Below, piece by piece: positions 6,001 through 39,976 of a DNA stretch of 64,000 nt. Positions within the stretch are counted from its first letter, which is position 1. Each line of letters begins with the position of its first letter. The notes under the pieces were generated by a model. It was not told the DNA's origin. It made no database searches and saw only the letters and a list, made by a program, of their open reading frames with translations. A program made the translations under genes and the position numbers. Source of the DNA: a virus. The stretch lies in the IMG/VR virus record IMGVR_UViG_3300020477_001008, positions 62,001 to 126,000 of that record; one strand, written 5' to 3'.

Positions 6001-7874
6001 GTACCAACTGTATAACCAAAAATTTCATTTCCTGTAAATGTTGATGAACTGTAAACACTAGTATTTCCTAAATCAATACCATTTGTATCATATAAATTAA
6101 ATTTAGGTGATTTGTTTATTCCTGTTTTTTGTTGTCCTAATTTCCATTCGTAACCAGTCCAGTAATATTCTTTACCTCCATTACTACCACCAAGTCTTAT
6201 AGTAACTTTATCATTGTCTTTTATTTTAAGTTCTGTTCCAGCATAATAAGTTGAGTCATCTAATGCTCTTAATTTAATTACACCACCTACAAATTTTACT
6301 TCATAAATTGATGACGACGCATCAAATGTACTAGACTTAACGTCCCAACCAGTGTCAGGAGTACCGTCACCGTCCTTATCGTAGTCCCAAGGATCAGTAT
6401 TTGCATCCCAGGTAACTAAATCTGTTTGCGAATTTGGATTTACAAATAAAACTTTATAACCTTCTACTAATAATATATCATCAACTCTATATGATGCTTG
6501 ATCTTCTATATCACTAATAGTTGCTGTTGATTCAAGAACATCAACAGTAGTAACGTGTTCAGAACCATAATTGTATAATTCAATATCTTTATTAAATTCA
6601 ATAATTGGTCTTTGACCTTTTCTAGCTTGTTCTAATTGAAATGATGTTTCTCTTAAGAGTGTAGTTGAATCAAAATATCCACCATCCCAGCCTCTAATAG
6701 CATCTGTTATAGAATCAAATGGATGAAACTCAGGAACTTCTTCTTGATAAGTTCTGTAATTTGTAATATTGTCTTTATGCACCCAGCCGTTTGTTCTTGA
6801 CCAAGGATTTTTATCTTTGCAACCTCTATTGATTGTAATATAATCTGCTGTAGCTACATCAGGTATAGTATCGTAACGTTCACTATCAAAACCTTTAGTA
6901 GTATCTGTTTGTGCTATTGTATCTGCTCTGTCCCAAGGTATAAATGTTTCTTTCAAAAACAATTCAGTTTCAACATCTGATGTTTCAACTAATGATATAC
7001 CTTCTTTTGAACCAACACTTTCTACAAAAACTTTTTTATCTTTATAAGTTGTACCAACTAGTGAAGAATCACTAAATTGTATTAACATACCAGAGCTGAG
7101 TGTTACACCATTGGGAGAAGTATAAGATTTTGAACCAATAATATTGTTAGGATCAACTCTATGATTGACAGTTATTTTATCTCCAGTAACAACGTTAATT
7201 GAACTGGTGGCAAATGATAAATTTAAACCTGTGGACTCATAATCGGCTGTTGCGACCCCATTAACTTCTACTATGTCATTGGGAGCGATTGAGTATGTTA
7301 ACACGAACGTTTTTGAGTTTGCAACTGACTCAAACGATTCAACCAAACCTCCTATAACAATAGCAGGTACGTTTAAATCTAAACTTGGATACCAATAGTA
7401 ATTTTCATAATTTATAAACTTATCATAATCTATTGGTGCGGAAAATGTATAATGCTTTTGTTCAAATAATCTATTTTGATCAATTGTTTTACCATTTTCA
7501 CTATCTATATAATTTAATATTTCACTATAAAAAACAGAATCTCTTAAATTTTTACTATCTGGATCTTTAATGATTCCAGCTGTTTCTAATTGATACGTTT
7601 TTCTATTTTTAATTGTTTCTGTTTTATAATTGTCTTTAGCTGGTCTATAAAATACATCAGATTTCCTACCAATGTATTCTGTAACTCTAGTATCATTTGC
7701 TTTACTAAAAGCTTGTTCAACTGTACCATCAAAGAAGTTTTTTAACTTTTCGTTTTGTAAAATTTCAGGTAAGAAACTTATAGCCTTAGCTTTATCGTCA
7801 GTTGTTGAAACTGAATTGCTAACACTTGAATTTGCATTAGATGAATTGAATTTTATTTCATCATCATAAGCCAT
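1..7874 (-). CDS. Giant baseplate/tail structural protein (gp7 position), C-terminus beyond window
   Basis: The minus-strand frame stays open from the ATG at 7872-7874 to the window edge (about 2,624 codons) with no stop at the points I translated, so the C-terminus is missing. It starts MAYDDEIKFNSS, 3 nt after the gp6 stop. T4 has the wedge protein gp7 (1,032 aa) here, so a baseplate wedge or peripheral role is likely from synteny; I see no clear gp7 sequence signature. The middle is rich in Trp/Tyr, the last several hundred codons in Gly/Thr/Ser/Asn as in beta-rich fibre proteins. A DKDGDGTPD calcium-loop-like motif is encoded near 6363-6380. It should be cotranscribed with gp25 and gp6 from the late promoter at 11798. 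Confidence 0.8.
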   Translation of the reverse strand, partial: MAYDDEIKFNSSNANSSVSNSVSTTDDKAKAISFLPEILQNEKLKNFFDGTVEQAFSKANDTRVTEYIGRKSDVFYRPAKDNYKTETIKNRKTYQLETAGIIKDPDSKNLRDSVFYSEILNYIDSENGKTIDQNRLFEQKHYTFSAPIDYDKFINYENYYWYPSLDLNVPAIVIGGLVESFESVANSKTFVLTYSIAPNDIVEVNGVATADYESTGLNLSFATSSINVVTGDKITVNHRVDPNNIIGSKSYTSPNGVTLSSGMLIQFSDSSLVGTTYKDKKVFVESVGSKEGISLVETSDVETELFLKETFIPWDRADTIAQTDTTKGFDSERYDTIPDVATADYITINRGCKDKNPWSRTNGWVHKDNITNYRTYQEEVPEFHPFDSITDAIRGWDGGYFDSTTLLRETSFQLEQARKGQRPIIEFNKDIELYNYGSEHVTTVDVLESTATISDIEDQASYRVDDILLVEGYKVLFVNPNSQTDLVTWDANTDPWDYDKDGDGTPDTGWDVKSSTFDASSSIYEVKFVGGVIKLRALDDSTYYAGTELKIKDNDKVTIRLGGSNGGKEYYWTGYEWKLGQQKTGINKSPKFNLYDTNGIDLGNTSVYSSSTFTGNEIFGYTVGTGTNDTHLGFPLTYTDYTSLSTIQFKNYLNSETNGPAGFKYYKKYDYKNILQDTFEYKIIVQKASGTTGNKFYIDNIEQQNLILIRGNKYIFDIDDSSVTSRGYSDAYHPFLMSITENGSHASGVSYNTGIKYFHNDIEVTEAVYHSATFDNATVTKRKIEFTPTAGTPDQLYYYCKNHSGMGGSIRIVNNNVTNLTDGTVTTHNNEWAAVSTKSKQCLVQEFDVADEVSNELFLLESIIAGDDTVRVFINNKEKLQGTDYEIQKNQFIKLTTPAIDTDHILVKFKSFDTRDLYKAYYEVPKNLTNNALNSDVVTYDYGDLLNHFSGGVANQKGLTGLALGNNNYRDTEQDLTLSENILQHDAPFLKLASHVNSDDRDIIKSLRLAETDYVRFKYKFLNKILDVARRNDVTSWTDTKLVDTALAEINQNKKPNENWAYSLMLSYGDAKQTNTTTITTANKTWSSDTKNWAIQDYQNVLTDSSAGGLVTSYAYSPVNDKDSKSLYVYNNDKLLVMNQDYVITNATDNRIVFIGDNKPEVGDKVRVDFFDKKQPVFIPPTPSKLGIYQTFIPSEIVDKDSFNKGEQTFIQGHDGSLNLKFYDDRDRALLELEKRIFNDIENKFIDPDYTAPLSYESLVSNYFNTKDYSYLEFNQIFRAHIYRWMTFNDVNWQKNHPVLVSETDWRTWNWKSITNIKDTATPGHWRGIYKKFYGTDRPHLTPWEMLGFSIKPTWWDDTYSWTETDKRNKLISDVENGIIRYGRRENFKDLSYTKRANIYRRDGFSTYLPVDFQGDLQSPKDIGLCSREPNRVEAHFHWSIGDIAPAEKAFYMSSTMPFALMSALFVMKPTQFTELMFDTLNIDNSNINKLQKFDKNTGKRHTNNVYVHRETANTSIAVGTGYQQYISERLINQNKKPDILYGGVIRNITPQLAHKQGAFIDFGSYKCQAEAYSPTSKRTSIYIPDTNINHLLHISPSVQNATYSAIIIEKTARGWSVHGYDIGKNYFRTNVSLETGPSVPVQVGGKYLDIPYYQPNQSLVLGDYILYEGTYYKVKEAHTTGNSFDPTKFLSVAKPPMEGGASVTYYRASKENETVDVEYGKEFTTKQEVFDFIVNYGRYLESQGWIFDSINTDIQETYNWLYSAKEFLFWSLGNWPAESILAVSPAANKVKFKPLNGVVASVEDVIGSSYSILDKDGKPIDPSTTTIIRDGSTVKITSDEKRPIYFVNVYAREIEHITIFDNVTTFKDVIYDPALSIRQPRLKQTLLRTNDWNGKLEANGYLINTEKGIISNFETAASDVTTYLDIDKTTNNEQLNKAGLHTIGFQNRESLENLEIVDESQTRFYQGFVRQKGSRNSVDKILRTDIINERQEINLYEYYAFKVGEFGGTEINQSMEFRLDPTKIKTNPQVVKFLPRIDNVVTTDIITDDIITIDADDSLNWTKKPTGSKVSDVIWPTRAESFDLPTAGYVHINDTNFQALEKANLKTQYGNTVASNTDVAIGSTTWVAKDDNGDWNVYRLTDTNHGIESVITTNPLTVSMNETAGKLVTTANATFEAVLPDHKNADASTITTTTYGTKTFQLSLTDQVIEKTINFTDFGGANANVSVANVADGVSAMVVTTAGSGYSVGDTIEADGNGGTSASGTVATINGSGGITSITLTNPGGAYYGEPGNVSIKTGGSDSAGSSAVIRFKGNNPTYQINTTLSNASTPFQYGETITQANTGATGKVINVYTDGTSTILHIYDHTNTFDTTNQITGGTGGASTTGSHTVTARSGSAYGDSTFGAILNLTINKGGSNYVSPTMTISGTSPATGVVSASSGVINKAYVENGSYGYRKEFSDNPTIGIVVKDTITDSDNKYVDFTDQLIKPDSIANVQIVINTAFDGSNPQFDIGTTATPNSLLSNQSLSTNAVATSFGTPITDRANATLRIRFATTGSTTGTAKISVNYKKAIYNVFDLPENDVVAATTVSAYSSTFFNGSNKHPLYTYKDVRLATRNNGIDT

Positions 7875-13803: not shown

Positions 13804-13831
13804 AAAGGCGGCTTTCGGGTCGCCTTTTTTT
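13804..13831 (+). terminator. Rho-independent terminator
   Basis: AAAGGCG (13804-13810) pairs with CGCCTTT (13821-13827) and continues into a T run. A late-like element for the next gene begins 7 nt later. Confidence 0.9.
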
Positions 13832-13837
13832 GTGGCC

Positions 13838-13845
13838 ATTAAATA
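13838..13845 (+). promoter_or_regulatory. Late-like element 5 nt before radical SAM gene
   Basis: ATTAAATA, one mismatch from nATAAATA, spaced exactly 5 nt from the ATG at 13851, as at the gp48/54 and portal genes. The spacing implies a leaderless or nearly leaderless late transcript. Confidence 0.45.
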
Positions 13846-13850
13846 GTAGT

Positions 13851-15056
13851 ATGAGCAGTAAAAAACCGTTGGTGTGCCAACTTGGTATGGCTGGAGTTAA
13901 TTTCAAACATAACAGAGTTGATCTTTGTTATAGGTCAACAAGTGGTACAACTAAAAAACATACAAGTATTGTAGATGCAATCAATGACGAAGAACTTTGT
14001 TCTCAAAGATTGCAATTGTTAAATGGTGACTGGCCAACAGCTTGTTATGATTGTGAGTATATGGAAAAATCTGGTGCTAACAGTTATAGGCAAAGAATAA
14101 AGCTCGATGAACAAAAACCAGATAGTTATTTTACAGATAATATAGATCCCAAAACAGGTAAAATTAAAAATCTTAAAAGAATAGAATTTAGATTTGATAA
14201 TGTTTGCAACTATGCTTGTAGGCATTGTTCAGCAGAATATAGTTCAACTTTAGAAAAAATTATAAAACAAAATCCAGATTTATTAGAGTTTGACGAAACA
14301 GATTTACATAAATTAGGACCAAGTTATGCTACTAGATTAGAAAATTTAAATGAAATAGAACAATTTATAAAAGATGATACAATTGAAATAGAAATTACAG
14401 GTGGAGAACCTTTTTTCCAAAATAGCTTTTATAATTGTTTAGAAAAACTTCAACCATTTGCTGACCGTATAAATTTTATTGTAACAACAAATGGAAGTAT
14501 AGCAGGTAAGTTTAAAAAATATGATGTTAAAGGATTACTTAAAAATTTCAAAGAAGTATATCTAAAAGTCAGTTTAGATGGATCAAAATCTTTTTATAAT
14601 TATTTTAGAGAAGGTGGCAATTGGGATACAGTAATAGCAAATATAAAATCTTTTAGAGAACTACCAAATGTTAGGATAGGTCCAATAGTAACTATATCTA
14701 ATATGCAGGCGGCTAGATTACCTGAAGTATATAAAGATTATTTTGAACTTGATCCTAATCCAAGAAACTTTGAAGCTGGGGAAGTTATTCATCCTAATAT
14801 GTTAAATCCTGTGCATTTACCAAATGCACTTAAACAACGATACCTTAAAGAATGGTTAGAGTTTAGGAATAGTTTAACTGATACAGAACACGCAGATCGT
14901 ATAGCCAATTTTGCAGTTCATATGTTTAAAACAGAACAACGTGATGAACTTGCTTGGAAACAATTTTGTTCTTATACAGATAAACTAGATAGAGTTCATA
15001 ACAAAAAAGTTTTTGATTATTTTCCTGAATGGGAAGAATTTTGGTATAAGTCTTAA
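13851..15056 (+). CDS. Radical SAM (twitch-type) protein
   Basis: This 401-aa protein has a radical SAM cluster motif CNYACRHC (CxxxCxxC, about residue 125) that would bind a [4Fe-4S] cluster and S-adenosylmethionine, followed by the ITGGEP loop and FIVTTNG and VSLDGS strands typical of the partial TIM barrel. An earlier pair, CYDCEYM, could ligate a second metal site. Start: the ATG at 13851 is used; a longer in-frame TTG reading begins inside the terminator. Substrate unknown; twitch-type radical SAM genes occur in marine T4-like phages. It interrupts the baseplate cluster and its end overlaps the convergent gp5 stop by 4 nt. Confidence 0.88.
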   Translation: MSSKKPLVCQLGMAGVNFKHNRVDLCYRSTSGTTKKHTSIVDAINDEELCSQRLQLLNGDWPTACYDCEYMEKSGANSYRQRIKLDEQKPDSYFTDNIDPKTGKIKNLKRIEFRFDNVCNYACRHCSAEYSSTLEKIIKQNPDLLEFDETDLHKLGPSYATRLENLNEIEQFIKDDTIEIEITGGEPFFQNSFYNCLEKLQPFADRINFIVTTNGSIAGKFKKYDVKGLLKNFKEVYLKVSLDGSKSFYNYFREGGNWDTVIANIKSFRELPNVRIGPIVTISNMQAARLPEVYKDYFELDPNPRNFEAGEVIHPNMLNPVHLPNALKQRYLKEWLEFRNSLTDTEHADRIANFAVHMFKTEQRDELAWKQFCSYTDKLDRVHNKKVFDYFPEWEEFWYKS

Positions 15057-24696: not shown

Positions 24697-24773
24697 AGGC
24701 GATTAGCTCAGTTGGTTAGAGCATTCCGTTGATAACGGAAAGGTCGTAAGTTCGAGTCTTACATCGCCTACCA
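24697..24773 (+). tRNA. tRNA-Ile (GAU anticodon)
   Basis: A complete cloverleaf: acceptor AGGCGAT pairs with ATCGCCT, D-arm GCTC/GAGC, anticodon stem TTCCG/CGGAA with loop TTGATAA (anticodon GAT), T-arm GTAAG/CTTAC with loop TTCGAGT, discriminator A and an encoded CCA. It lies 4 nt after gp46. It is the only tRNA I found in the window and would read AUC/AUU codons. Confidence 0.97.
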
Positions 24774-24811: not shown

Positions 24812-25624
24812 ATGTTAATTAGAAAAAAATATCAATTACCTACAATGTGGAAATTCAACAAGAAGTTTGACATTAAAAAACTTCAAGAAGAAGCTTTAAA
24901 ACTAGGTAACAGCTACGGTGACGTAATGGAAACTAACAAAGCATTATGTTCAAATAATCACGAATTAGTTATGAGTGTTTACAAACACTTTAAACAAATT
25001 AATTTAACTGAATTTGATCCTACTGCTCCTGCACCAACTGTTGAAAGTTGTGAAGCACTTGGTAAAACTGCTGGTACAGGTGATGAGTCAATTGGTAGAA
25101 TTGCAAAGTATAAATTGAAATCAAGACGTGGTGAATCTTTAGATCCAGCACTTAATGAACACAATTATAATACTCCAACAGAGCAATATAAAGGAACTTA
25201 CTTTCAAGAAGTTGTAAATTCATTTAATGCTGATGCTATTAGAGTTAGACTTGTTAGATTAGATCCAGGTAAAACACTTACACCACATATTGATTATGAT
25301 CCAACTTATGCAGTAAGAGTTATTGTTCCTATCTTTGCAGAGAAAGAAGCAACAAATTATTTTTGGCGTAAAGGTAAAGAAGAAGCATATCATTTAGAAC
25401 CAGATGGGTCAGCATACTTTTTAAATATTGGTTTCACTCATACTGTAGTTAATTCAGGTAGCACACCTAGAATTAGTTTAATGTTTAGTTTAAAAAATCA
25501 ATCAGACTTGCAAGAAATCCCAGATGCTGATTGGAATGAAAATAATAATATGGGTGAGCTACGTATTAATAATAATTATAAAACACAAAAGGCACTAGCA
25601 GATGCCCAACAATTGGCAGTTTAA
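24812..25624 (+). CDS. Aspartyl/asparaginyl beta-hydroxylase-like 2OG-Fe(II) oxygenase
   Basis: A 270-aa protein with the iron facial triad in a cupin-like core: LTPHIDYDPTYAVRVIVPIF supplies His-x-Asp and GFTHTVVNSGSTPRISLMFS supplies the distal His and the 2-oxoglutarate-binding Arg. Start: the ATG at 24812 is used; an upstream in-frame TTG exists but has no better signal. Substrate unknown. It overlaps the following SET-domain gene by 23 nt, so the two are coupled. Confidence 0.8.
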   Translation: MLIRKKYQLPTMWKFNKKFDIKKLQEEALKLGNSYGDVMETNKALCSNNHELVMSVYKHFKQINLTEFDPTAPAPTVESCEALGKTAGTGDESIGRIAKYKLKSRRGESLDPALNEHNYNTPTEQYKGTYFQEVVNSFNADAIRVRLVRLDPGKTLTPHIDYDPTYAVRVIVPIFAEKEATNYFWRKGKEEAYHLEPDGSAYFLNIGFTHTVVNSGSTPRISLMFSLKNQSDLQEIPDADWNENNNMGELRINNNYKTQKALADAQQLAV

Positions 25625-25949
25625 AACTGAAATAAAAGAATCTGAAATACACGGCCACGGCAGGTTTGCTATGGAAGATATTCCTAAAGGGAAAACAGTT
25701 GTAACATTAGAAGGTCCTGCTTTACCAAAAGAACAAGCACCAAGAAAAATGCCAGTAAGTGATACACACAATATGAATTGCGAGGATACATTTGTTAATC
25801 ACAATGATGATGCCAACCTTACATTAGTAGATACTAAAATTACTATAACTGTTGAAAAAACATTTGTGTCTACAAAGAAGATTAAAAAAGGTGCTGAACT
25901 TACAATGAACTACGAAGAATTTGCAAGAGGCAAAAAGTTTTTATTCTAA
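25602..25949 (+). CDS. Minimal SET-domain protein (putative protein lysine methyltransferase)
   Basis: A 115-aa protein with the core SET elements: IHGHGRFAMEDIPKGKTV near the N-terminus, FVNHNDDANL corresponding to the NHxxxxN motif that binds S-adenosylmethionine, and IKKGAELTMNYEEF corresponding to the ELTxxY catalytic strand. No post-SET cysteine cluster is present and the insert between the halves is very short. If active it would methylate Lys on a host or phage protein. It is translationally coupled to the upstream hydroxylase and its TAATG overlaps the next gene. Confidence 0.75.
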   Translation: MPNNWQFKTEIKESEIHGHGRFAMEDIPKGKTVVTLEGPALPKEQAPRKMPVSDTHNMNCEDTFVNHNDDANLTLVDTKITITVEKTFVSTKKIKKGAELTMNYEEFARGKKFLF

Positions 25950-26059: not shown

Positions 26060-26189
26060 TTTTACTTTCAATAAATTTTGCGTAATATTTCGTCAAAGGA
26101 TTATTTGGCTGATAACCAAATGGCTCTGACTGTGATTTTTTACGTTTTTTTGAAAGTTTTTTACGGGTTCTCTTTTTCTGACTCTGCAT
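26049..26189 (-). CDS. 46-aa very basic small protein
   Basis: A short ORF starting MQSQKKRTRKKLSKKRKK then SEPFGYQPNNPLTKYYAKFIE. It overlaps the end of the oxygenase gene at 26161 by 29 nt in another frame. It would be the last gene of the minus-strand accessory operon. The Lys/Arg run suggests nucleic-acid or membrane association. Whether it is translated is uncertain. Confidence 0.4.
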   Translation of the reverse strand: MQSQKKRTRKKLSKKRKKSQSEPFGYQPNNPLTKYYAKFIESKTKI

Positions 26190-26865
26190 CAAAATTATAT
26201 TTATCTTTCCAGCCCATATTTGCAAAAGGCCAGCCAGTAATTACAGCACGACATCCTGGTTTAGCATTTCTAACAGGGTTAACAAAGTGAGCAGATCCTA
26301 CTCTAAATAATACACAAGAGTTTCTTTTTGGTTTTATTGCTAAAGGTCCTGCAAGGTAAGGTTGTGTTTCTAGTTTTTCTTTAAACTGTTCCCAGTTTCC
26401 TCTTTCTTCTGGGTATGTATCAAAATGATCCATTAACATAATTTCATTAGGAAATACTAGTTCACCACCTTCTTCTGTAGTTAGATAATGTACAAAAACA
26501 AAGTCACCATAAATGTCTCTTCTTTCAGTATGTACGTTGTATATGCTTTGTGGGTTAAAAGTTTTTGTAGTAAATTGTAATACATTTTTAGGATTTATAT
26601 CTTGTATTAGTATTGGCTTATATACTTCTTCGAGAACTTCATTTAGTTTTGTAATGATTTGTACAACAAGTTTACTATTTTCGTGTATATTATATTTGAT
26701 ATGATTATAGTTGTAATAAGATTTACTTATTATATGTGGTTGTTCGTTACCATCTAATTCTTTTGTGTCTGAATTTTCTATATTTTTTAAAACGTCATCA
26801 ATTAATTCTTCTTCAACAAAATTTTCAGTATACCAGACTTCGTTTATGATTCTTTCTTCCCACAT
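26161..26865 (-). CDS. 2OG-Fe(II) oxygenase (prolyl-hydroxylase type), paralogue A
   Basis: A 234-aa protein aligned along its length with the gene at 28120. The core reads YNVHTERRDIYGDFVFVHYL, then GGELVFPN and AHFVNPVRNAKPGCRAVITG, giving a first His with an acidic partner, a distal His and an Arg for 2-oxoglutarate. The first acidic ligand appears to be Glu (HTE) rather than the usual Asp. It follows SufD without a gap in the accessory operon. The substrate is unknown. Confidence 0.78.
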   Translation of the reverse strand: MWEERIINEVWYTENFVEEELIDDVLKNIENSDTKELDGNEQPHIISKSYYNYNHIKYNIHENSKLVVQIITKLNEVLEEVYKPILIQDINPKNVLQFTTKTFNPQSIYNVHTERRDIYGDFVFVHYLTTEEGGELVFPNEIMLMDHFDTYPEERGNWEQFKEKLETQPYLAGPLAIKPKRNSCVLFRVGSAHFVNPVRNAKPGCRAVITGWPFANMGWKDKYNFDAESEKENP

Positions 26866-27444
26866 CTAAATATGTTCCTGTGTTCTTATATGAGCGAATG
26901 CTTCTACTAATACTTCAATGGCTTCATCTTCTGTATATCCTCTGCTTTGCAAATAAAACAAATGATCTTCATCTAATGCTCCTATTGTGCAACCGTGTGT
27001 ACAAATAACATCATCATTGTTAATATCTAATTCTGGTTTTGCAAAAGCATCTGATTCATTATCTAATAAAATGTTTTTGTTTAACATATGACTTTCGCAT
27101 TTTACTACATCTTTTGGTACAGTAATTTTTCCTTCAAAAGAACTTATACCTTTTTTATTAACAAATCTAAAATCTTGATTACATTTTGATTTACTGCCTT
27201 TATGTACAACATTAGTAATTAAATTAGTTTTCTTTTTTGTATTTTTAAAAAAACCATAAAGTTCACAAGAAGAATTTTCGCCTAGCTCAACATTAATTTT
27301 TGTATCGCTATCTGCTTTGCCTTTAGCTTCAAAAAATAAACAAGCTTTTGCGTTTGGTTTTATTTTAAAATTTAAATTATTGATATCAGTTATATTGATT
27401 TTTGTTTCTAATTCTTTATCAATAATATAATTATTTTCTATCAT
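26866..27444 (-). CDS. sufD: SufD/SufB-family Fe-S assembly protein, truncated
   Basis: A 192-aa protein matching the C-terminal core of SufB/SufD: the beta-helix part (KINVELGENSSCELYGFF, SKCNQDFRFVNKKGISSFEG) and the family-defining end KPELDINNDDVICTHGCTIG, then LDEDHLFYLQSRGYTEDEA. Host SufD is over 400 aa, so the N-terminal half is missing. Start: the ATG at 27444 is used (AAGGG upstream); the longer frame starts with TTG. It overlaps the end of SufC by 14 nt. It likely partners SufC in [Fe-S] cluster assembly; no SufB, SufS, SufE or SufA gene is in the window. Confidence 0.85.
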   Translation of the reverse strand: MIENNYIIDKELETKINITDINNLNFKIKPNAKACLFFEAKGKADSDTKINVELGENSSCELYGFFKNTKKKTNLITNVVHKGSKSKCNQDFRFVNKKGISSFEGKITVPKDVVKCESHMLNKNILLDNESDAFAKPELDINNDDVICTHGCTIGALDEDHLFYLQSRGYTEDEAIEVLVEAFAHIRTQEHI

Positions 27445-28120
27445 TATTAAACCCTTGCTCATCTATGGTATCAAGTAATGTTACATCACCAGTTCTGTTT
27501 ATTTTGCCATCTTGCAAAATATGTACATAAGTTGGGTTCAAGCTTCTTAATACAGATGAATTATGACTAATAACAATCCATCCAAACTTATCTTTGTTTT
27601 CAGTAATTAATTCTTTAACAATTTTTAATGCATCTACATCAAGTCCTGTATCGAGTTCATCAAGTATTACAAGTTTAGGATTAATATGTAACAGTTGTAA
27701 TATTTCGTTTTTCTTTTTCTCTCCACCTGATGCACCATCATTAAAATGTCTTTGAGCCCATCCGGATTGTAATTTTAATCTTTCAATGTCACTTAAATAT
27801 TTTTCATATTGTTTAGAAAATTGACTTACTAATTTATAATTTGTTATACCTGGTATACTAGGAGGAGATTGAAAGCTCATAAACAAACCAGAATTTGCTC
27901 TTTCAGTTACATCTAAATCAATTAATTCATTGTTGTTTAGTTTAATTGAACCAGTTGTTGCATATTGTTCTTTACCAACTATTGCATTTGCTAAACTTGA
28001 TTTGCCTGATCCATTAGGTCCTATTAAGGCGTGAAGTTCCCCTTGCTTAACATTTAAGTTAACGCCTTTAATGATTTCGTTATCATCTACTTTTACTTTT
28101 ATATCTTTTAATTCTAACAT
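27431..28120 (-). CDS. sufC: SufC-like ABC ATPase for Fe-S cluster assembly
   Basis: A 229-aa ABC ATPase: Walker A GPNGSGKSS (about residues 35-43), the SufC-typical Q-loop region FMSFQSPPSIPGITN, signature SGGEKKKNEILQLL, Walker B LVILDELDTGLD and switch His in ISHNS. The SIPGxTN and GGEKKKNEI stretches separate SufC from transporter ATPases. Length is near normal (about 250 aa). The ATG at 28120 overlaps the upstream stop (TAATG). SufC binds SufD/SufB and powers the scaffold, so the adjacent SufD supports the assignment. Confidence 0.92.
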   Translation of the reverse strand: MLELKDIKVKVDDNEIIKGVNLNVKQGELHALIGPNGSGKSSLANAIVGKEQYATTGSIKLNNNELIDLDVTERANSGLFMSFQSPPSIPGITNYKLVSQFSKQYEKYLSDIERLKLQSGWAQRHFNDGASGGEKKKNEILQLLHINPKLVILDELDTGLDVDALKIVKELITENKDKFGWIVISHNSSVLRSLNPTYVHILQDGKINRTGDVTLLDTIDEQGFNNDRK

Positions 28121-28887
28121 TAATGACAATCTTCCGGCTTTGGTTCTTGATGTTTTTCAGCATCAAAGTAATAGTTAAAATTACAATGCTGATCTAACCC
28201 ATCTATAAGTTCTTTGGTAGCATAAGGCCAACCTGTTACTACTGGTCTTGCATTTTCTTTTACTTCTCCTTCAAGAGATGTAACGTAATGTGCTGATCCA
28301 ATAGCAAATATTACACATTTATTATATTTTGGTTTTATAGTAATATCGTTTAGATAACGCATTGGAAAACCTTTTGACTCAACTAGTTTTATATTTTCTT
28401 CCCAACGATTTTTTTGTTTTGGATATTTTTCTAAATGTTTTTCACAACCTTCTTTACTCGGAAATATTAAATGTCCACCTTTTTCATCTGAAAGGAAATG
28501 CATAAAAGCATAAGGTCCATATTTGTTAATTGGTTCTGTATGTAAATCATACCAACCTCTTTTGCTAAAGCTTTTTGTAAACAACTGTAACCCTTCTAAG
28601 TTTGTTTTAGGTACAGGTGTTTCTGTTAATGGCTGTAGCACTTCATTTATTCTATCCATATATAAATCAATTAATATTTTATTTTTATGTATATCTGTTC
28701 TATGTACAGTATAATTGTAAGTTGTAGCATTAACCCCAGAGTTTCTAAAGTTTGGTAGTATTGCTTCTCCTGGCTCTAGTTCAGTTGTTCCTGCTTGAAA
28801 CATTTCTCTTTTAATATGTTCAACAGTTTCTTCATTAAGAAAATCATCTATTTCCCAAATTTCGTTTTTAACTATTTCGTTCCACAT
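28120..28887 (-). CDS. 2OG-Fe(II) oxygenase (prolyl-hydroxylase type), paralogue B
   Basis: A 255-aa paralogue of the 26161 protein: DLHTEPINKYGPYAFMHFL, GGHLIFPSKEG and SAHYVTSLEGEVKENARPVV give the same His-x-acid, His and Arg layout. Both share the ending PVVTGWPYA/AVITGWPFA. It sits between the B12-type radical SAM gene and SufC with overlapping start/stop codons at each side, so it is part of the same coupled operon. The substrate is unknown. Confidence 0.8.
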   Translation of the reverse strand: MWNEIVKNEIWEIDDFLNEETVEHIKREMFQAGTTELEPGEAILPNFRNSGVNATTYNYTVHRTDIHKNKILIDLYMDRINEVLQPLTETPVPKTNLEGLQLFTKSFSKRGWYDLHTEPINKYGPYAFMHFLSDEKGGHLIFPSKEGCEKHLEKYPKQKNRWEENIKLVESKGFPMRYLNDITIKPKYNKCVIFAIGSAHYVTSLEGEVKENARPVVTGWPYATKELIDGLDQHCNFNYYFDAEKHQEPKPEDCH

Positions 28888-30668
28888 TATCTTTCGTGTC
28901 CTATTGCTATTACATTTGCATTTTTCATTCTTGCATCAGTACCATACATACTCATATCAAACTCTTTTTTCCATTCGTTAACGTCAGATTTAACAACATC
29001 TAAAGGATATATTGTGGACATCTCGTCAACTATACTTTCTTTATGATGCCAAATTTGATATATTTCATCAGAACGTAAACATCTACTAAAATAAAGATAT
29101 GTAGCCAAATCTTGTACTTCAGTTCTTTCTTCATCACAAAATATTTTTGTAATGATATCTCTATTTTTTCCAACCAACCATTTCATAAGTGGCATATTAT
29201 CTAAGTTATTATAAAACATTTTTATTTGATCTGCAACCGATGTACCACGTTCCACTAGGTATTTAATAGAATTTGATAGGGTTCTTGCATTATAAAAGTT
29301 ATGGTAAAACCACCAATAATCAAACATTTTCAATAATTCTGGTAAATCATATGATGAACATTGGTGCATAATTTCTATTTCTTCAAACTCATATGTACTT
29401 CTTTCATCTCTAAATTCTGGTTCGTTGTGTAATTTTTTATATCCAAGTCCACTAAAACTATAAGGAAATGCAAGTATTTTAGATTTAACTTTATATTCTT
29501 TTCTAAATTGTTTTGTGTATATTTCTGTATTTGGTACAAGATTTAAAAAATAAGAACGCATAAAATCAATACCAAGTTCATAATCTTTGTTTAAACTGTA
29601 TAACCAACTGTCTGCTGTTTCACCTGGTAATGCAATAATCATTTCACTTGTAACAGGCAATCCTTTTGATTTAAAACTGTCAATTAACGGCAATAACTTA
29701 TCATTATTAATGTTTGCTCTGTTAATAACTTTTAATGTTTGTTTGGCGTGTGTTTGAAAACTTACTTTTAGGTTACGTTGGTCTGCATCTAAATTGTTAT
29801 GTATAATATCTATAATTTCTGGCAACCACTTACTGCCATTCTTTGCAAGTCCTGAGTATGATATCTTAGGATTATTACCTGTTGCTTCTTTGTTTGCTTT
29901 CATCTTCTTTACAACATCTAAATCTCTAGGTAGCATACCAAAGTTAGCATCAAGTATTTCAAGCTCTGCTATGTTTGTGTGCTTGTATAAGAAGTCTAAT
30001 TGTGCATTAACAGGATCCATATCAAACTTTGTAACTTTAGATCTTGCTTGTCCACCCCAATCACAAAATGCACACTTAAAAGGACAACCACGATTAGTTT
30101 CAAAAGATGCTTTAACTCTTTTTTCTTTTGCAAGTATAGAATCAAATGTACCGTCTAAGTATGGTGTAGGCATTTCATAAGTTTCAATTTGATATAATTT
30201 ACGTCCTACTTCAACATTATTCCAACCAATACCAAATCCTCCATCGTGAGTTTGCATTGGTGCATCAATATTTTTTAAAAAATTGCTAACTAATTTTTCT
30301 CCTGGACCTACCCAAAATATATCTATGTAAGGATGTTCTTTTGCAAACTGTTCTGCAAGTTCTGGGTCTTCAGGTATATTAGGTCCACCATACATAGCAA
30401 TACCGTTTGGATTTACATCTTTGTAATGACTCATTAATTGATCGTTGTATGCTTGATTCCAAACATAACAAGTCAAACCAAATATATCAATGTTTTTAAA
30501 TTGTTCTGTGTATTCTTCTACAGGCTTAAATTTATATAATGGTTCGTTAAATGTGTAGTTTTCTTTTATTTGTGGAATTTTATTACAATAGCTTATGAGA
30601 CAAGCCGCGGCATATGGTAGCCACGTTTCGTGAATTACAGATATGGTTCCTAATTGTACTGTTTTCAT
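28887..30668 (-). CDS. B12-binding-type radical SAM enzyme
   Basis: A 593-aa protein. The N-terminal about 150 residues look like a cobalamin-binding-like Rossmann domain (DIFGLTCYVWN, GIAMYGGPNIPEDPE, IFWVGPGEK), followed by a radical SAM domain with RGCPFKCAFCDWGG (CxxxCxxC, near residue 195) and barrel strands such as SFQTHAKQTLKVI and SEMIIALPGET. The B12 site lacks an obvious DxHxxG motif, so cobalamin use is uncertain. Start: the ATG at 30668 is used; the longer frame opens with TTG. Such enzymes do radical methylations or rearrangements. It needs Fe-S clusters, and sufC/sufD follow in the operon. Confidence 0.82.
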   Translation of the reverse strand: MKTVQLGTISVIHETWLPYAAACLISYCNKIPQIKENYTFNEPLYKFKPVEEYTEQFKNIDIFGLTCYVWNQAYNDQLMSHYKDVNPNGIAMYGGPNIPEDPELAEQFAKEHPYIDIFWVGPGEKLVSNFLKNIDAPMQTHDGGFGIGWNNVEVGRKLYQIETYEMPTPYLDGTFDSILAKEKRVKASFETNRGCPFKCAFCDWGGQARSKVTKFDMDPVNAQLDFLYKHTNIAELEILDANFGMLPRDLDVVKKMKANKEATGNNPKISYSGLAKNGSKWLPEIIDIIHNNLDADQRNLKVSFQTHAKQTLKVINRANINNDKLLPLIDSFKSKGLPVTSEMIIALPGETADSWLYSLNKDYELGIDFMRSYFLNLVPNTEIYTKQFRKEYKVKSKILAFPYSFSGLGYKKLHNEPEFRDERSTYEFEEIEIMHQCSSYDLPELLKMFDYWWFYHNFYNARTLSNSIKYLVERGTSVADQIKMFYNNLDNMPLMKWLVGKNRDIITKIFCDEERTEVQDLATYLYFSRCLRSDEIYQIWHHKESIVDEMSTIYPLDVVKSDVNEWKKEFDMSMYGTDARMKNANVIAIGHER

Positions 30669-30727
30669 AATGCTATTGTCCAAACCTAGATTGTTTTACA
30701 CGACAATTATAGTGTTATTTAGTTTGT

Positions 30728-31475: not shown

Positions 31476-32609
31476 TTATGTTTGAATATGTAAGTTGGGA
31501 TCACCACTTTGTTTTTGTATTACAGTATTAGACGACTTCCATTTACCATTTTCACAACTTCTCCAACATCTACGTAACTCACGTTTTTTTGTAGTCCACG
31601 CATCAGTAATTTCTTTCCAAGCTGGCTGGTGCCAAATTTCCATTAATGAACGTGTATTAAAGTTGTTAAAATCGTTTTTGTAATGTTCTACTAGCCATTC
31701 TTCTTTTCTTGCTAATTGATGTATTGATAAATCATATTCCTCTGACAAATAACAACAAGGCCATATTCTACCTTTAGGATTCAAATACATTCTATGGTCG
31801 TCAATACCTCTGCAAGAAATACAAGTTTCTTCTTTTACTTTTAGTTGTTTAAAAACTTCTTTTTTAATCTCTTCAGTTTTCTTTGTTTTTATTTCTTCAA
31901 CTTCTTTAACTCTTTCAATTCTTTTTTCAGGTTTTTTCTTTGCAACTTTTACAGCTTCTTGATAATCTTCTTCTGGTGGTGGCTCTCTAGTTGTAACTTC
32001 AGCTGAAAAATGTGCAAATCCTAATTTTCTTGATAAGGCTTCTGCTTCTTCTACTTGGTGTTCGTTGTGATCAAATATTAACATTTTCCACTCAGCTAAT
32101 CCGCCAGCATTAATATAAGCTTCAACGTTTTGAATTAATTTGTCCCAATCAACTTTTCTTCTATATAAATGATTAGTATCTTTTAATCCATCAATAGAGA
32201 AAGTTATACGTGTTGATCCTATATCCCAATTTGATGATCCTTTGCGTTTAGATGTTTCTCCTAGATTACGCCAAAAGTCAGTTGTACGTCCTCCACCATT
32301 AGTATGAACTCCAACGTTCTTGAAATTTTCTGATGCATATTGATATAAAAATTCAAATTCAGGGTGCATTAAAGAATCGCCATAATTTCCACAGTACCAA
32401 ACATTGACTTTATCAGCTCCTTGAAATAAATCAAACTGTTCTTTCATTTTTTCTAATAAATGAGTAGGTAAATGTTCTAAAGCTAGATCTTCTATAACGT
32501 CACTTGTACCTGGCTTATGTCTAGAGCAATACGGACACCCTGCGTTACAAAAGGTCGTAGGCTCTACCTCAATCGTATGTATATGCTGTGGTTTAATTAA
32601 TGAAAACAT
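31476..32609 (-). CDS. Radical SAM enzyme with C-terminal Cys region
   Basis: A 377-aa radical SAM protein: EPTTFCNAGCPYCSRHKPG gives CxxxCxxC near residue 21, WYCGNYGDSLMHPEF fits the SAM-binding second strand, and TRITFSIDGLKDTNHLYRR the next. A Lys/Glu-rich insert (about residues 225-270) precedes a Cys region (CISCRG, PCCYLSEEY, CWRSC) resembling a SPASM/twitch auxiliary cluster site. SPASM enzymes often modify peptides; whether this one does is unknown. It starts 10 nt after the upstream gene. Confidence 0.82.
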   Translation of the reverse strand: MFSLIKPQHIHTIEVEPTTFCNAGCPYCSRHKPGTSDVIEDLALEHLPTHLLEKMKEQFDLFQGADKVNVWYCGNYGDSLMHPEFEFLYQYASENFKNVGVHTNGGGRTTDFWRNLGETSKRKGSSNWDIGSTRITFSIDGLKDTNHLYRRKVDWDKLIQNVEAYINAGGLAEWKMLIFDHNEHQVEEAEALSRKLGFAHFSAEVTTREPPPEEDYQEAVKVAKKKPEKRIERVKEVEEIKTKKTEEIKKEVFKQLKVKEETCISCRGIDDHRMYLNPKGRIWPCCYLSEEYDLSIHQLARKEEWLVEHYKNDFNNFNTRSLMEIWHQPAWKEITDAWTTKKRELRRCWRSCENGKWKSSNTVIQKQSGDPNLHIQT

Positions 32610-33938: not shown

Positions 33939-34579
33939 TCTCCTACCCAATCTTTAAACCATTTTAAAAATTCATCTTTATTTTCTATTATATTAAGTTT
34001 TTCATCGTTGCTTTTTGGATTTTGTCGTATCATTATTTCACCATTGTTAGGAAAGTCTGGTAACTCTTCAAACCAAACAGTACGTTCAATGTTTAATTTA
34101 CTTTCACGTTTTTTTAAATCTTCTATACGCCATACTAAATTATCAAACCATTCTTTTTTATAATTAAATGTTTGCCCTTTTTCTAATCCATTAATGCCAT
34201 TATTCTTTTTCCAATCAGGATACCAATACCATTTAAAAGTTGTCCATCCTATTCCGTAACTTATAAATTGCCCAAGTAAATCTTTTCTTTTAACTAAAAC
34301 AATAGGTTTTTGATAAACAAAGTCCCAAATATATTTGCTCATATCAGGACCTGAGTGCATTTTAAATATATAATCAGGTGGTAGTTCTCTTATTCTTTTT
34401 TGTGTTTCGTTATCTATACCTTCAATATCGCCAAGGTCAGGCCAATCAGGATAGTCTGGCTCAAAGTACTCAAATAATCTGTGTTCAGAAAGTGCAATAC
34501 ATTGAGGATATTCATTTGCATACCATTTAGTAACAAAGCTTGTTCCACTTCTTGGAGTACCTATAATAATTTTATGCAT
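33926..34579 (-). CDS. Sulfotransferase-family protein
   Basis: A 217-aa protein with a 5'-phosphosulfate-binding loop at the very N-terminus, IIIGTPRSGTSFVTKW, and a region PIVLVKRKDLLGQFISYG matching the 3'-phosphate-binding R...S motif of PAPS-dependent sulfotransferases. It overlaps the APS kinase gene by 8 nt, so donor synthesis and transfer are coupled. The acceptor may be a lipid, glycan or small molecule; the neighbouring desaturase makes a lipid conceivable. Confidence 0.78.
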   Translation of the reverse strand: MHKIIIGTPRSGTSFVTKWYANEYPQCIALSEHRLFEYFEPDYPDWPDLGDIEGIDNETQKRIRELPPDYIFKMHSGPDMSKYIWDFVYQKPIVLVKRKDLLGQFISYGIGWTTFKWYWYPDWKKNNGINGLEKGQTFNYKKEWFDNLVWRIEDLKKRESKLNIERTVWFEELPDFPNNGEIMIRQNPKSNDEKLNIIENKDEFLKWFKDWVGEWKV

Positions 34580-35009
34580 TGTTTCCTATCGTGTTTAATG
34601 TACCAACAATGGTATCAATCCACCCTTCAGCATTTTTTTCTTTAATAATAATATCTGCATCGTCACCATTAGCAACTATTGGTTTCTCAAACATTTCATT
34701 TGTATCTTCAAAGTCACTTGATTCAATAGTGTCTAACCATATTGTAAAATCAGCATTAAAAATTTTTCTTGTTTCAACTGTAGGACAAATAAAATCTGCA
34801 ACAACAATATGTCCTTCGTTTACTTTTCTATCAGCAAGTTGTTTCATACGTTCTGCTTGTTTTATTCTTCCTTCTTTACTATAATCAAAATTTTGATCAG
34901 TCTTTCTAACAACATCAGCATTAAGCCATTTTGCTTTTAATACTGGTACTAATTTTGAAGCTAAAGTAGTTTTGCCAGCACCTGACAAACCCATTATTAA
35001 TATTTTCAT
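34572..35009 (-). CDS. APS kinase-like protein (PAPS synthesis)
   Basis: A 145-aa P-loop kinase: MGLSGAGKTTLA, then WLNADVVRKT matching the LDGDNVR motif of adenylylsulfate kinase, and VVADFICPTVETRK for the lid strand. CysC is about 200 aa, so this is shortened at the C-terminal side. It would convert APS to PAPS, the donor for the coupled sulfotransferase. ATG and the upstream TGA overlap. Confidence 0.78.
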   Translation of the reverse strand: MKILIMGLSGAGKTTLASKLVPVLKAKWLNADVVRKTDQNFDYSKEGRIKQAERMKQLADRKVNEGHIVVADFICPTVETRKIFNADFTIWLDTIESSDFEDTNEMFEKPIVANGDDADIIIKEKNAEGWIDTIVGTLNTIGNNA

Positions 35010-35758
35010 TTTTCTTTCTTTGATAATAACTTTATAAATTGATATCCTATATCAAGCTCCCACCATTTATATTTGAACGTTGCTTCTTGTGGTTTCCAAT
35101 GGTGATTATTATGCCAGCCTTCTCCCCACATTAATATTCCTAGTATAGGAATGTTTGTTGAGTTATCATCTGTATCGTGATTTCTATAACCAAACGTATG
35201 AGTTAATGTGTTAATAAATGATCCAGCATTCCATAATATCATTGCTGGAAATAGATAAGCGGCAACTAATAACATTGGGTCAATAAGATACCATATTATT
35301 GCTATTACTAAATGAATAGCAAAATACCAATTATGCAATATTAAATGAAACTTTGATCTAATTAATCTTATAACATATCTTGGGTTAGGTGTTTCAAACA
35401 TACTCAGCCATTGCACTCTAAAAAATCCTAAATGTTCAGGAGAGTGCGGATCACCTTCTTTATCAGTATGGTGATGATGTTCTTTATGTATTGCTACCCA
35501 ACCTATACTTGATCCTGTTAAACCATAAAAGCCACATAATGTTCCAAAGTATTCAAACCATTTAGGTGCCTTCCAGCTGTTATGACTTAACAATCTATGA
35601 TATGTCATAGTCATACCAAAACATCCAGTAACAAAATAAACTGCAAATCCAATTAACCAATGATGTAATGATCCATACATAATCATTGGAATAATTGATA
35701 AGTGAGTTATAATTTGTACTAAAAGAAGCAAGTATTGATCTCTAGTATATTTTTTCAT
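35006..35758 (-). CDS. Membrane fatty-acid desaturase
   Basis: A 250-aa membrane protein with the three histidine boxes of acyl-CoA/acyl-lipid delta-9-type desaturases: HRLLSH, HKEHHHH and EGWHNNHHW, with hydrophobic segments between them (ITHLSIIPMIMYG, WLIGFAVYFVTG, VIAIIWYLIDPMLLVAAYLF). The di-iron centre inserts a cis double bond in an acyl chain. Start: the ATG at 35758 is used; the longer frame starts with TTG. It is the first gene of the accessory operon behind a late-type element. Confidence 0.92.
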   Translation of the reverse strand: MKKYTRDQYLLLLVQIITHLSIIPMIMYGSLHHWLIGFAVYFVTGCFGMTMTYHRLLSHNSWKAPKWFEYFGTLCGFYGLTGSSIGWVAIHKEHHHHTDKEGDPHSPEHLGFFRVQWLSMFETPNPRYVIRLIRSKFHLILHNWYFAIHLVIAIIWYLIDPMLLVAAYLFPAMILWNAGSFINTLTHTFGYRNHDTDDNSTNIPILGILMWGEGWHNNHHWKPQEATFKYKWWELDIGYQFIKLLSKKEK

Positions 35759-35791
35759 TATTATTCCCAATATTTTAGTCTATTATAATGA

Positions 35792-39398: not shown

Positions 39399-39573
39399 AG
39401 AAAAACTAATAATGACATTGGTTATTGTTATGTCATTTGCAGTAGTAGTTTTATCTTATTCAATTATCGATATGCAACAATCTATTTCTGAACTTTATGA
39501 AATACAATTAGAAAATAATGCAATGATGAATTTTTTTAAAATGTTATTAGGAGGTATAGGACCTAGTGTCTAA
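39355..39573 (+). CDS. Small single-TM protein
   Basis: A 72-aa reading with a basic N-terminus (KRLKNKQKTTIKFREK) and one membrane segment TLVIVMSFAVVVLSY followed by a short helical tail. It overlaps the preceding gene by 44 nt; an internal ATG at 39412 would give a 53-aa version starting MTLVIVMSF without overlap. I cannot decide the start. Its end overlaps the GTG start of the next gene. Confidence 0.45.
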   Translation: MKRLKNKQKTTIKFREKLIMTLVIVMSFAVVVLSYSIIDMQQSISELYEIQLENNAMMNFFKMLLGGIGPSV

Positions 39574-39976
39574 GAAAATAGGCATCACGTTTTCAACTTT
39601 TGATTTGCTACACGCAGGTCATATTGCTATGCTTGAAGAAGCAAAATCAAAATGTGATTATTTGATAGTTGGTTTACAAAGTGATCCTACAATTGATAGG
39701 CCTGATACAAAGAATAAACCTATACAAACTATTTTTGAAAGGTACTTACAATTAAAAGCATTAAAATATGTTGATGAAATTATTCCTTATCAAACTGAAC
39801 AAGACTGTGAAGACATATTATCAACATTACCAATTAATATACGTATTATAGGTGAAGAATATAAAACCAAACCATTTACTGGTGCAGATATTTGTAAAAG
39901 AAGAAACATTGAAGTTTATTTTAATAAACGTGAACACAGATTTAGTTCAACAGATTTAAGAGAGAGAATAAAATAA
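39566..39976 (+). CDS. Nucleotidyltransferase (TagD-like cytidylyltransferase)
   Basis: A 136-aa protein with the hallmark motifs: FSTFDLLHAGHIAMLEEAK (HxGH nucleotide-binding site, about residues 9-27), VGLQSDPTI, and RFSSTDLRERI matching the RTxGISTT motif region. This family activates glycerol-phosphate or similar substrates with CTP for surface polymer or lipid headgroup synthesis. Start is GTG at 39566, overlapping the previous stop. It ends directly before a hydroxylase gene. Confidence 0.85.
   Translation: MSKKIGITFSTFDLLHAGHIAMLEEAKSKCDYLIVGLQSDPTIDRPDTKNKPIQTIFERYLQLKALKYVDEIIPYQTEQDCEDILSTLPINIRIIGEEYKTKPFTGADICKRRNIEVYFNKREHRFSSTDLRERIK

Follow-up and report, generated by a model that had tools for sequence, protein, structure and literature searches.

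A probable, nearly complete SUF machine with a half-length SufD in a T4-like jumbo phage record

A sufC gene and a gene for a half-length SufD overlap in a 64-kb stretch of viral DNA (the window; positions 62001-126000 of the 242,646-base virus record G000). They are probably part of a nearly complete SUF machine that the phage encodes at two places in its genome, with a SufBC2D-like scaffold containing a minimal SufD. Sequence comparison establishes that homologues of SUF genes are present and retain the known catalytic and cluster-site residues, and from these we infer the pairing of SufB with SufD and of SufC with SufD, the activity, and the clients. The phage probably uses the machine to equip its own roughly two dozen Fe-S enzymes. 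The features concerned are listed in Table 1.

Table 1. Genes for SUF components and neighbouring or candidate client proteins; positions refer to the window unless marked as record positions
Feature	Position	Strand	Evidence or context
sufC, SUF-scaffold ABC-type ATPase, 229 aa	27431..28120	-	TIGR01978, phmmer, motif residues
short sufD ("mini-SufD"), 192 aa from likelier start	26866..27444	-	PF01458, H156, AF2 model, fold match
2OG-Fe(II) oxygenase-like, directly downstream of short sufD	26161..26865	-	PF13640 32.5 bits
2OG-Fe(II) oxygenase-like, overlaps sufC start	28120..28887	-	phrog_61 1.9e-06; PF13640 below cut-off
B12-binding-type radical SAM, abuts oxygenase-like gene	28887..30683	-	PF04055 38.6 bits; NF033712 153.9 bits, under cut-off
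radical SAM/SPASM protein	31476..32609	-	PF04055 41.5 bits; PF13186 31.5 bits
twitch-domain radical SAM protein	13830..15056	+	NF033640 233.3 bits (cut-off 170)
SufE	record 173164-173568		PF02657 95.1 bits (cut-off 27)
SufS	record 183109-184314		PF00266 411.9 bits; TIGR01979 466.9 bits
ribosomal bL12	record 184386-184856 (L009:14386-14856)		between SufS and SufB
SufB	record 184856-186280		PRK11814 856.5 bits (cut-off 717)
Nfu	record 195812-196372		PF01106 94.6 bits (cut-off 27)
SufT-like FeS_assembly_P protein	record 196369-196674		PF01883 51.1 bits (cut-off 23.5)

The window encodes a T4-type portal, a major head protein and a baseplate wedge protein, and PA5oct/MIJ3-type jumbo phages of Pseudomonas have major capsid proteins with 69.6% identity to the one encoded here; the source record is predicted to be the genome of a jumbo T4-like marine phage. 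Other genes in the window specify one tRNA-Ile (GAT; 24697-24773, +), a SET-domain protein (25602-25949, +) that adjoins an Asp/Asn hydroxylase-like gene and is also found in loci L001 and L002, an APS-kinase-like protein (34572-35009, -), a fatty acid desaturase (35006-35770, -), a cytidylyltransferase-like protein (39566-39976, +) and ribosomal protein uL11 (63472-63948, -; TIGR01632, 201.5 bits). The available sections of PMC6375957 mention uL11 only as a part of the stalk.

The sufC product scores above the NCBIfam TIGR01978 cut-off (245 versus 212.8 bits), as do all seven phage SufCs found, and matches E. coli SufC in phmmer at 7e-52. It carries Walker A (GPNGSGKSS, with K40), signature (SGGEKK), Walker B (ILDELD, with E155) and H-loop (H186) motifs, and K40, E155 and H186 align with Lys40, Glu171 and His203 of E. 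coli SufC. The stretch from Q-loop to signature is ~17 residues shorter than in the E. coli protein. The best non-SufC model reaches 93.7 bits, and by profile score SufC is assigned to the SufCs and not to the transporter ATPases; the SufC tree (44 rows) held SufCs only.

The likelier start of the short SufD is the second ATG, at 27444, which has the better ribosome-site-like context and is the start used in L012; the upstream ATG at 27462 would give a protein of 198 aa (27462-26866). Depending on this start, sufC and sufD share 14-32 bases. The short SufD matches PF01458 (SUFBD_core) with 126 bits (cut-off 27) over positions 63-232 of the 232-position profile, and it prefers the SufD model to the SufB model (TIGR01981, 134.5 bits, versus TIGR01980, 61.8 bits). 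In the SufD tree, SufDs split from the SufB outgroup with support of 100/100. The score is below the TIGR01981 equivalog cut-off of 222 bits, most simply because half of SufD is missing, and we therefore call the protein a short SufD, not a canonical SufD. We considered whether the missing half is encoded as a separate gene and rejected this, as PF01458 is matched at only two sites in the record, the short SufD and a full-length SufB, and PF19295 is matched only in SufB.

Structural modelling agrees with this assignment. An AlphaFold2 model based on a ten-row alignment of short SufDs (pLDDT 86.1, pTM 0.81) consists of a beta-solenoid and two C-terminal helices, and all 15 Foldseek matches with E <= 0.001 are SufB, SufD or SMS-B chains, the B chain of the M. 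jannaschii SMS complex among them. One of these, 4dn7, is deposited as a "putative ABC transporter" but has a sequence that matches the short SufD and SufB. A second aligner superimposes 198 residues on residues 165-402 of E. coli SufD (rmsd 1.9, Z 20.1-20.5), and gives a Z of 20.9 with an rmsd of 3.1 for SufB, whereas unrelated structures score ~10 or below. The protein is thus a SufD without residues 1-164 and without ~20 residues at the C-terminus (403-423). It contains neither the N-terminal helical domain nor the full beta-helix of SufD, and the missing residues 403-423 are part of the SufC-docking domain. The model retains the dimer interface, His360 and the two C-terminal helices. H156 and C154 align with His360 and Cys358 of E. 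coli SufD, and the equivalents of Pro347, Cys358, His360, Tyr374, Arg378, Gly379 and Phe393 are invariant in all ten phage short SufDs; that of Ala385 is found in eight. According to the available sections of PMC6006206, His360 is the only SufD residue found to matter in an in vivo assay, the dimer interface includes both Pro347 and His360, and SufC is docked by the C-terminal helices of SufD.

A preliminary description of these genes had reported a nearly full-length SufC with all ABC motifs, overlapping a 192-aa SufD reduced to its core. Its coordinates, lengths and motifs are correct, and the reduced protein aligns to SufD 165-402 only. It would have been contradicted by a grouping of SufC with transporter ATPases or by a SufD-like protein outside the SufBD family; the profile scores for both proteins, and the fold for SufD, instead indicate true relatives.

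SufB, SufS and SufE are absent from the window, and the only match for each in the record lies outside it, ~83-97 kb from the sufC-sufD pair. SufS falls 8 bits short of the TIGR01979 cut-off (475.1 bits), SufE is under its equivalog cut-off (68.4 versus 160 bits) and the SufT-like protein is below that of TIGR02945 (104.6 versus 143.4 bits). Searches of the record for A-type carriers, including SufA (PF01521), and for IscU (PF01592) gave no match, and the same searches were positive in nine and twelve, respectively, of 14 control genomes. SufA belongs to E. coli suf, but is not universal. The preliminary statement that SufB, SufS, SufE and SufA are lacking therefore holds for the window, and for SufA in the record, but fails for the other three in the record. 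The conclusion drawn from it, that the pair must use host components or act as SufC-SufD alone, fails likewise.

The order ClpX-SufS-bL12-SufB is repeated in another contig (L023), which speaks against a chimeric record. Ribosomal protein bL12 is common in phages. The record also encodes translation initiation factor IF-3 (L009:11550-12104), and ClpX, DnaK, ClpS and ClpP, which together make up a set of chaperones and proteases, are encoded near the suf genes (L009:10261-11553; L010:246-2138, 4484-4786, 6706-7293).

Residues expected of a working sulfur donor, acceptor and scaffold are recognizable in the partner proteins. C359 and K222 of SufS lie within the expected motifs in an alignment to a structure other than E. 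coli SufS; we take C359 to be the equivalent of E. coli SufS Cys364. SufE C50 aligns with E. coli Cys51. In SufB, C232, K282, C384 and E413 correspond to E. coli Cys254, Lys303, Cys405 and Glu434, and R204, N206, Q263 and W265 to Arg226, Asn228, Gln285 and Trp287. The equivalents of these eight residues, critical in vivo according to the available sections of PMC6006206, are identical in all ten distinct phage SufBs.

IMG/VR was scanned with a single short SufD protein and with an alignment, which yielded nine distinct phage short SufDs besides that of the window and so a set of ten, of 188-198 aa (alignment A4 omits the near-duplicates L015, L017 and L021 and the repeat rows L001/L011, L003/L018 and L004). 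All ten fall into a single, long-branched clade (100/99). When the window's genes are compared with their two nearest relatives, dN/dS is 0.11/0.76 and 0.12/0.73 for SufD, and 0.13/0.88 and 0.22/1.36 for SufC. Overall, the ratio is ~0.15 for SufD and SufC and ~0.12 for SufB and SufS, and the genes compared contain no internal stop. The short SufD is thus under purifying selection, conserved and not decayed. The loss of half of SufD and the scattering of the genes might suggest a functionless remnant of a captured suf operon, but such a remnant is hardly credible given these ratios, the intact reading frames, and an identical truncation in ten distinct sequences of a single clade.

We surveyed 20 virus records picked for SufB or short SufD, most of which are fragments and fewer than 20 of which are independent (G236/G237 and G239/G240 resemble near-duplicates). 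SufB is found in 19 of them, short SufD in 10, SufE in eight, SufC in seven and SufS in three; full-length SufD is found in none. SufB occurs without any SufD in ten records, and co-occurs with short SufD in nine of the ten that have the latter, the exception being a 39-kb fragment. SufB, SufC, short SufD, SufE and SufS are all encoded in an independent 328-kb record (L013/G234), whose SufS is above the TIGR01979 cut-off (491.5 versus 475.1 bits). SufB, SufE, SufC and short SufD lie within a single 3.5-kb stretch in L020, and SufB directly adjoins short SufD in L014, L018, L019 and L022.

These associations bear on two other readings. Phage SufC and short SufD could join host SufB, or form mixed complexes, and so raise or redirect host Fe-S output. 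This resembles the preliminary suggestion that the pair retunes the host Suf machine, which we retain as an alternative, not as the main reading, since the record has partners of its own. A SAR11-like source, best supported for SufS and compatible with SufC, is consistent with host dependence, as are the modularity of SUF parts and the phage records that have SufB but not SufC or SufD. However, with SufB, SufS and SufE encoded in the same record, and SufB accompanying all short SufDs except that of the 39-kb fragment, we consider it unlikely. A SufC2D2-like complex that works without SufB in another job, such as iron handling or ATPase signalling, is much less likely still: sufC adjoins sufD far from sufB in this record, and E. 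coli SufC2D2 exists, but the available sections of PMC6006206 attribute probably no physiological significance to the latter, SufB is present in the record, and it abuts short SufD in other phages.

In a 50,697-record collection, no relative of the short SufD or of SufB from a cultured phage was convincing. "Microcystis phage MaAM05" (MW495066; L007, L008) has sufBCDS-iscU, but it also has many housekeeping genes (secE-nusG-rplK-rplA, ispG and pgi), bacterial ones being listed in its first 50 kb; it is probably a bacterial contig that was deposited as a phage, and we rejected it as a comparator. Listeria and Enterococcus "phage" records bearing sufB are short or unannotated, and three from Staphylococcus (phiST9-B, ISU935 and phiSP44-1; H9, H10 and H12) have sufB near the record ends, which may reflect a site of integration or host DNA at the flanks; all were taken for host DNA. 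A 44% identical SufB on a very long branch (L047, L048), from a 125-kb viral record, may stem from a separate capture event or from a cellular contig called viral by mistake.

A radical-SAM gene, an oxygenase-like gene, sufC, short sufD and a second oxygenase-like gene form an overlapping or abutting run on the minus strand. The order oxygenase-SufC-SufD-oxygenase recurs in L011, L012 and L013 (L011 is cut at one end), and L012 and L013 also have the B12-binding-type radical-SAM neighbour. The three radical-SAM proteins in Table 1 are likely Fe-S clients. The preliminary mention of Fe-S enzymes in the same operon was correct but too modest, as the whole record has 23 PF04055 radical-SAM matches, at least 15 of which exceed the family cut-off. 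These proteins, too, are likely clients of the phage SUF machine. Other records have 22 (G234), 12 (G236), nine (G239) and four (G241) PF04055 matches, and G244 and G251, which have SufB and no SufD, have one each, a trend that is a hint only in a non-random comparison of seven records of unequal lengths.

Half-length SufDs are not unique to phages. Among 67 complete cellular SufDs (from 80 genome-contig loci chosen by SufB), the median length is 439 aa and the minimum 242. In a sample of the order Pelagibacterales, however, the SufD open frames measure 305-333 aa in 38 of 117 genomes, and in a sample of the alphaproteobacterial class, six of 115 have SufD frames of 210-278 aa inside contigs. 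When read out, these six short alphaproteobacterial SufDs (L137-L141 and L143; 206, 224, 228, 249, 242 and 242 aa) all adjoin SufB and SufC, and five of them SufS as well. Both they and Pelagibacterales SufDs of 304-307 aa (L147-L149, L154) reside in sufBCDS-type operons. Like the phage proteins, the alphaproteobacterial forms are N-terminally reduced and lie beside SufB, SufC and usually SufS; unlike them, they (206-249 and 304-307 aa) retain more of the extreme C-terminus, and the phage clade stands apart. Of all the observations, the occurrence of the 206-249-aa forms in suf operons hints most strongly that a machine with a half-length SufD can work. It also bears on the idea that short SufD is a weapon of host takeover that poisons host SufBC2D by occupying SufB. 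Truncated subunits can be dominant negative, and Clp proteins are also phage-encoded, but an inhibitor is very improbable when short SufDs persist in the suf operons of bacteria themselves, the phage also supplies SufS, SufE and SufB, and none of the ten short SufDs deviates at His360 or at most of the interface residues.

The origin of the phage genes appears to be mixed. Phage SufS (three rows) groups with Pelagibacterales SufS (100/98) in a tree of 60 of 78 rows whose bootstrap is not fully settled, and an unrooted tree places SufC together with three Pelagibacterales rows in a set supported at 99/89. In a SufB tree of 65 rows, the SufBs of L013 and L020 are inside a SAR11 clade (99/95), whereas the window's SufB belongs to the main phage clade of 15 (99/93), which the tree leaves unplaced among cells. 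SufB was therefore probably captured more than once. The SufD tree (59 rows, including a contig-edge SufB fragment, L153_cell124_edge, that fell with the SufB outgroup) gives the phage clade no place among cells: the best tree joins it to the 304-307-aa SAR11 SufDs with support of 26/23, and AU tests reject a union neither with full-length SAR11 SufDs (p 0.465) nor with the other short SufDs (p 0.435). The preliminary proposal of a SAR11-like suf origin is thus supported for SufS and compatible with SufC, but not extended to SufD. The trees thus indicate a mosaic set, for some parts of which SAR11-like bacteria are the likeliest source.

If the favoured reading of a phage-encoded SUF machine is correct, SufS would draw sulfur from cysteine as a persulfide on C359, and C50 of SufE would hand it to C232 of SufB, from where it would pass through SufB to C384. 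SufB, two SufCs and the short SufD would form a SufBC2D-like complex, in which ATP-driven dimerization of SufC would open the SufB-SufD interface. The cluster would form there with C384 and E413 of SufB and H156 of SufD, and Nfu and the SufT-like protein would pass clusters on, mainly to the radical-SAM enzymes of the phage. In this machine SufD would do without its N-terminal half, and the remainder would pair with SufB, dock SufC and carry the His360 equivalent. A bolder version, slightly less likely than not, is that jumbo marine phages have a self-sufficient, virus-specific factory of the SufSE and SufBC2D type, unmixed with that of the host, which loads about two dozen viral radical-SAM enzymes while host supply fails, and whose existence in nature would prove that clusters can be assembled without the N-terminal half of SufD.

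Several observations count against a nearly complete and SufBC2D-like machine: the record has no A-type carrier or IscU; SufD 403-423, which belongs to the SufC-docking domain, is missing; short SufD, SufS and SufE are under NCBIfam cut-offs; and across the surveyed records SufS, SufC and SufE are infrequent and SufB often occurs without SufD. Because sufB lies ~95 kb from the sufC-sufD pair, co-expression is only putative.

Compared with E. coli SUF (SufABCDSE; SufBC2D, PDB 5AWF), the phage shares homologues of SufB, SufC, the SufD core, SufS and SufE with key residues kept, but its SufD is without 1-164 and ~403-423, it has no SufA, and its genes are in two or more clusters. The archaeal SMS system (SmsB-SmsC), as portrayed in the available sections of PMC12442378, resembles the phage set in having a smaller SufBC-type scaffold, but is without SufD, whereas the phage combines a full SufB with a reduced SufD. 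Given the short SufD, and scores of 197.4 bits for phage SufB and 28.6 bits for short SufD against an NF052511 (SmsB) cut-off of 650, the phage system does not appear to be SMS. A half-length SufD, shared by phages and some small-genome bacteria, marks the minimal working part of SufD, which could be tested with a short construct.

Single Fe-S assembly genes in marine phages are already published and have been interpreted as a means of boosting the supply of clusters. In the accessible open-licence full text, we recognized no description of phage SufB, SufC, SufD, SufS and SufE as a set. HMO-2011-type phages carry iscU and erpA (available sections of PMC9038755), which are likewise Fe-S assembly genes of marine phages, but of the ISC scaffold and insertion type and not a SUF machine. 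The T4-like marine viral genomes of Nishimura 2017 (PMC5332604), in the sections available, have ATC, IscU, PaaD and up to 12 radical-SAM genes; their assembly genes are single carriers or scaffolds (ATC, IscU), with no SufB, SufC, SufD, SufS or SufE found in those sections, whereas PF01521 and PF01592 are absent from the present record. Those genomes and the present record are T4-like and marine and combine Fe-S assembly genes with many radical-SAM clients, and the proposal of Nishimura 2017 that such genes supply proteins of the virus and of the host alike anticipates the supply idea. A phage that encodes a sulfur donor with its acceptor, a scaffold with its ATPase, and proteins for handing clusters over, together with 23 radical-SAM matches, suggests that viruses can come equipped with an entire cofactor pathway to serve enzymes of their own.
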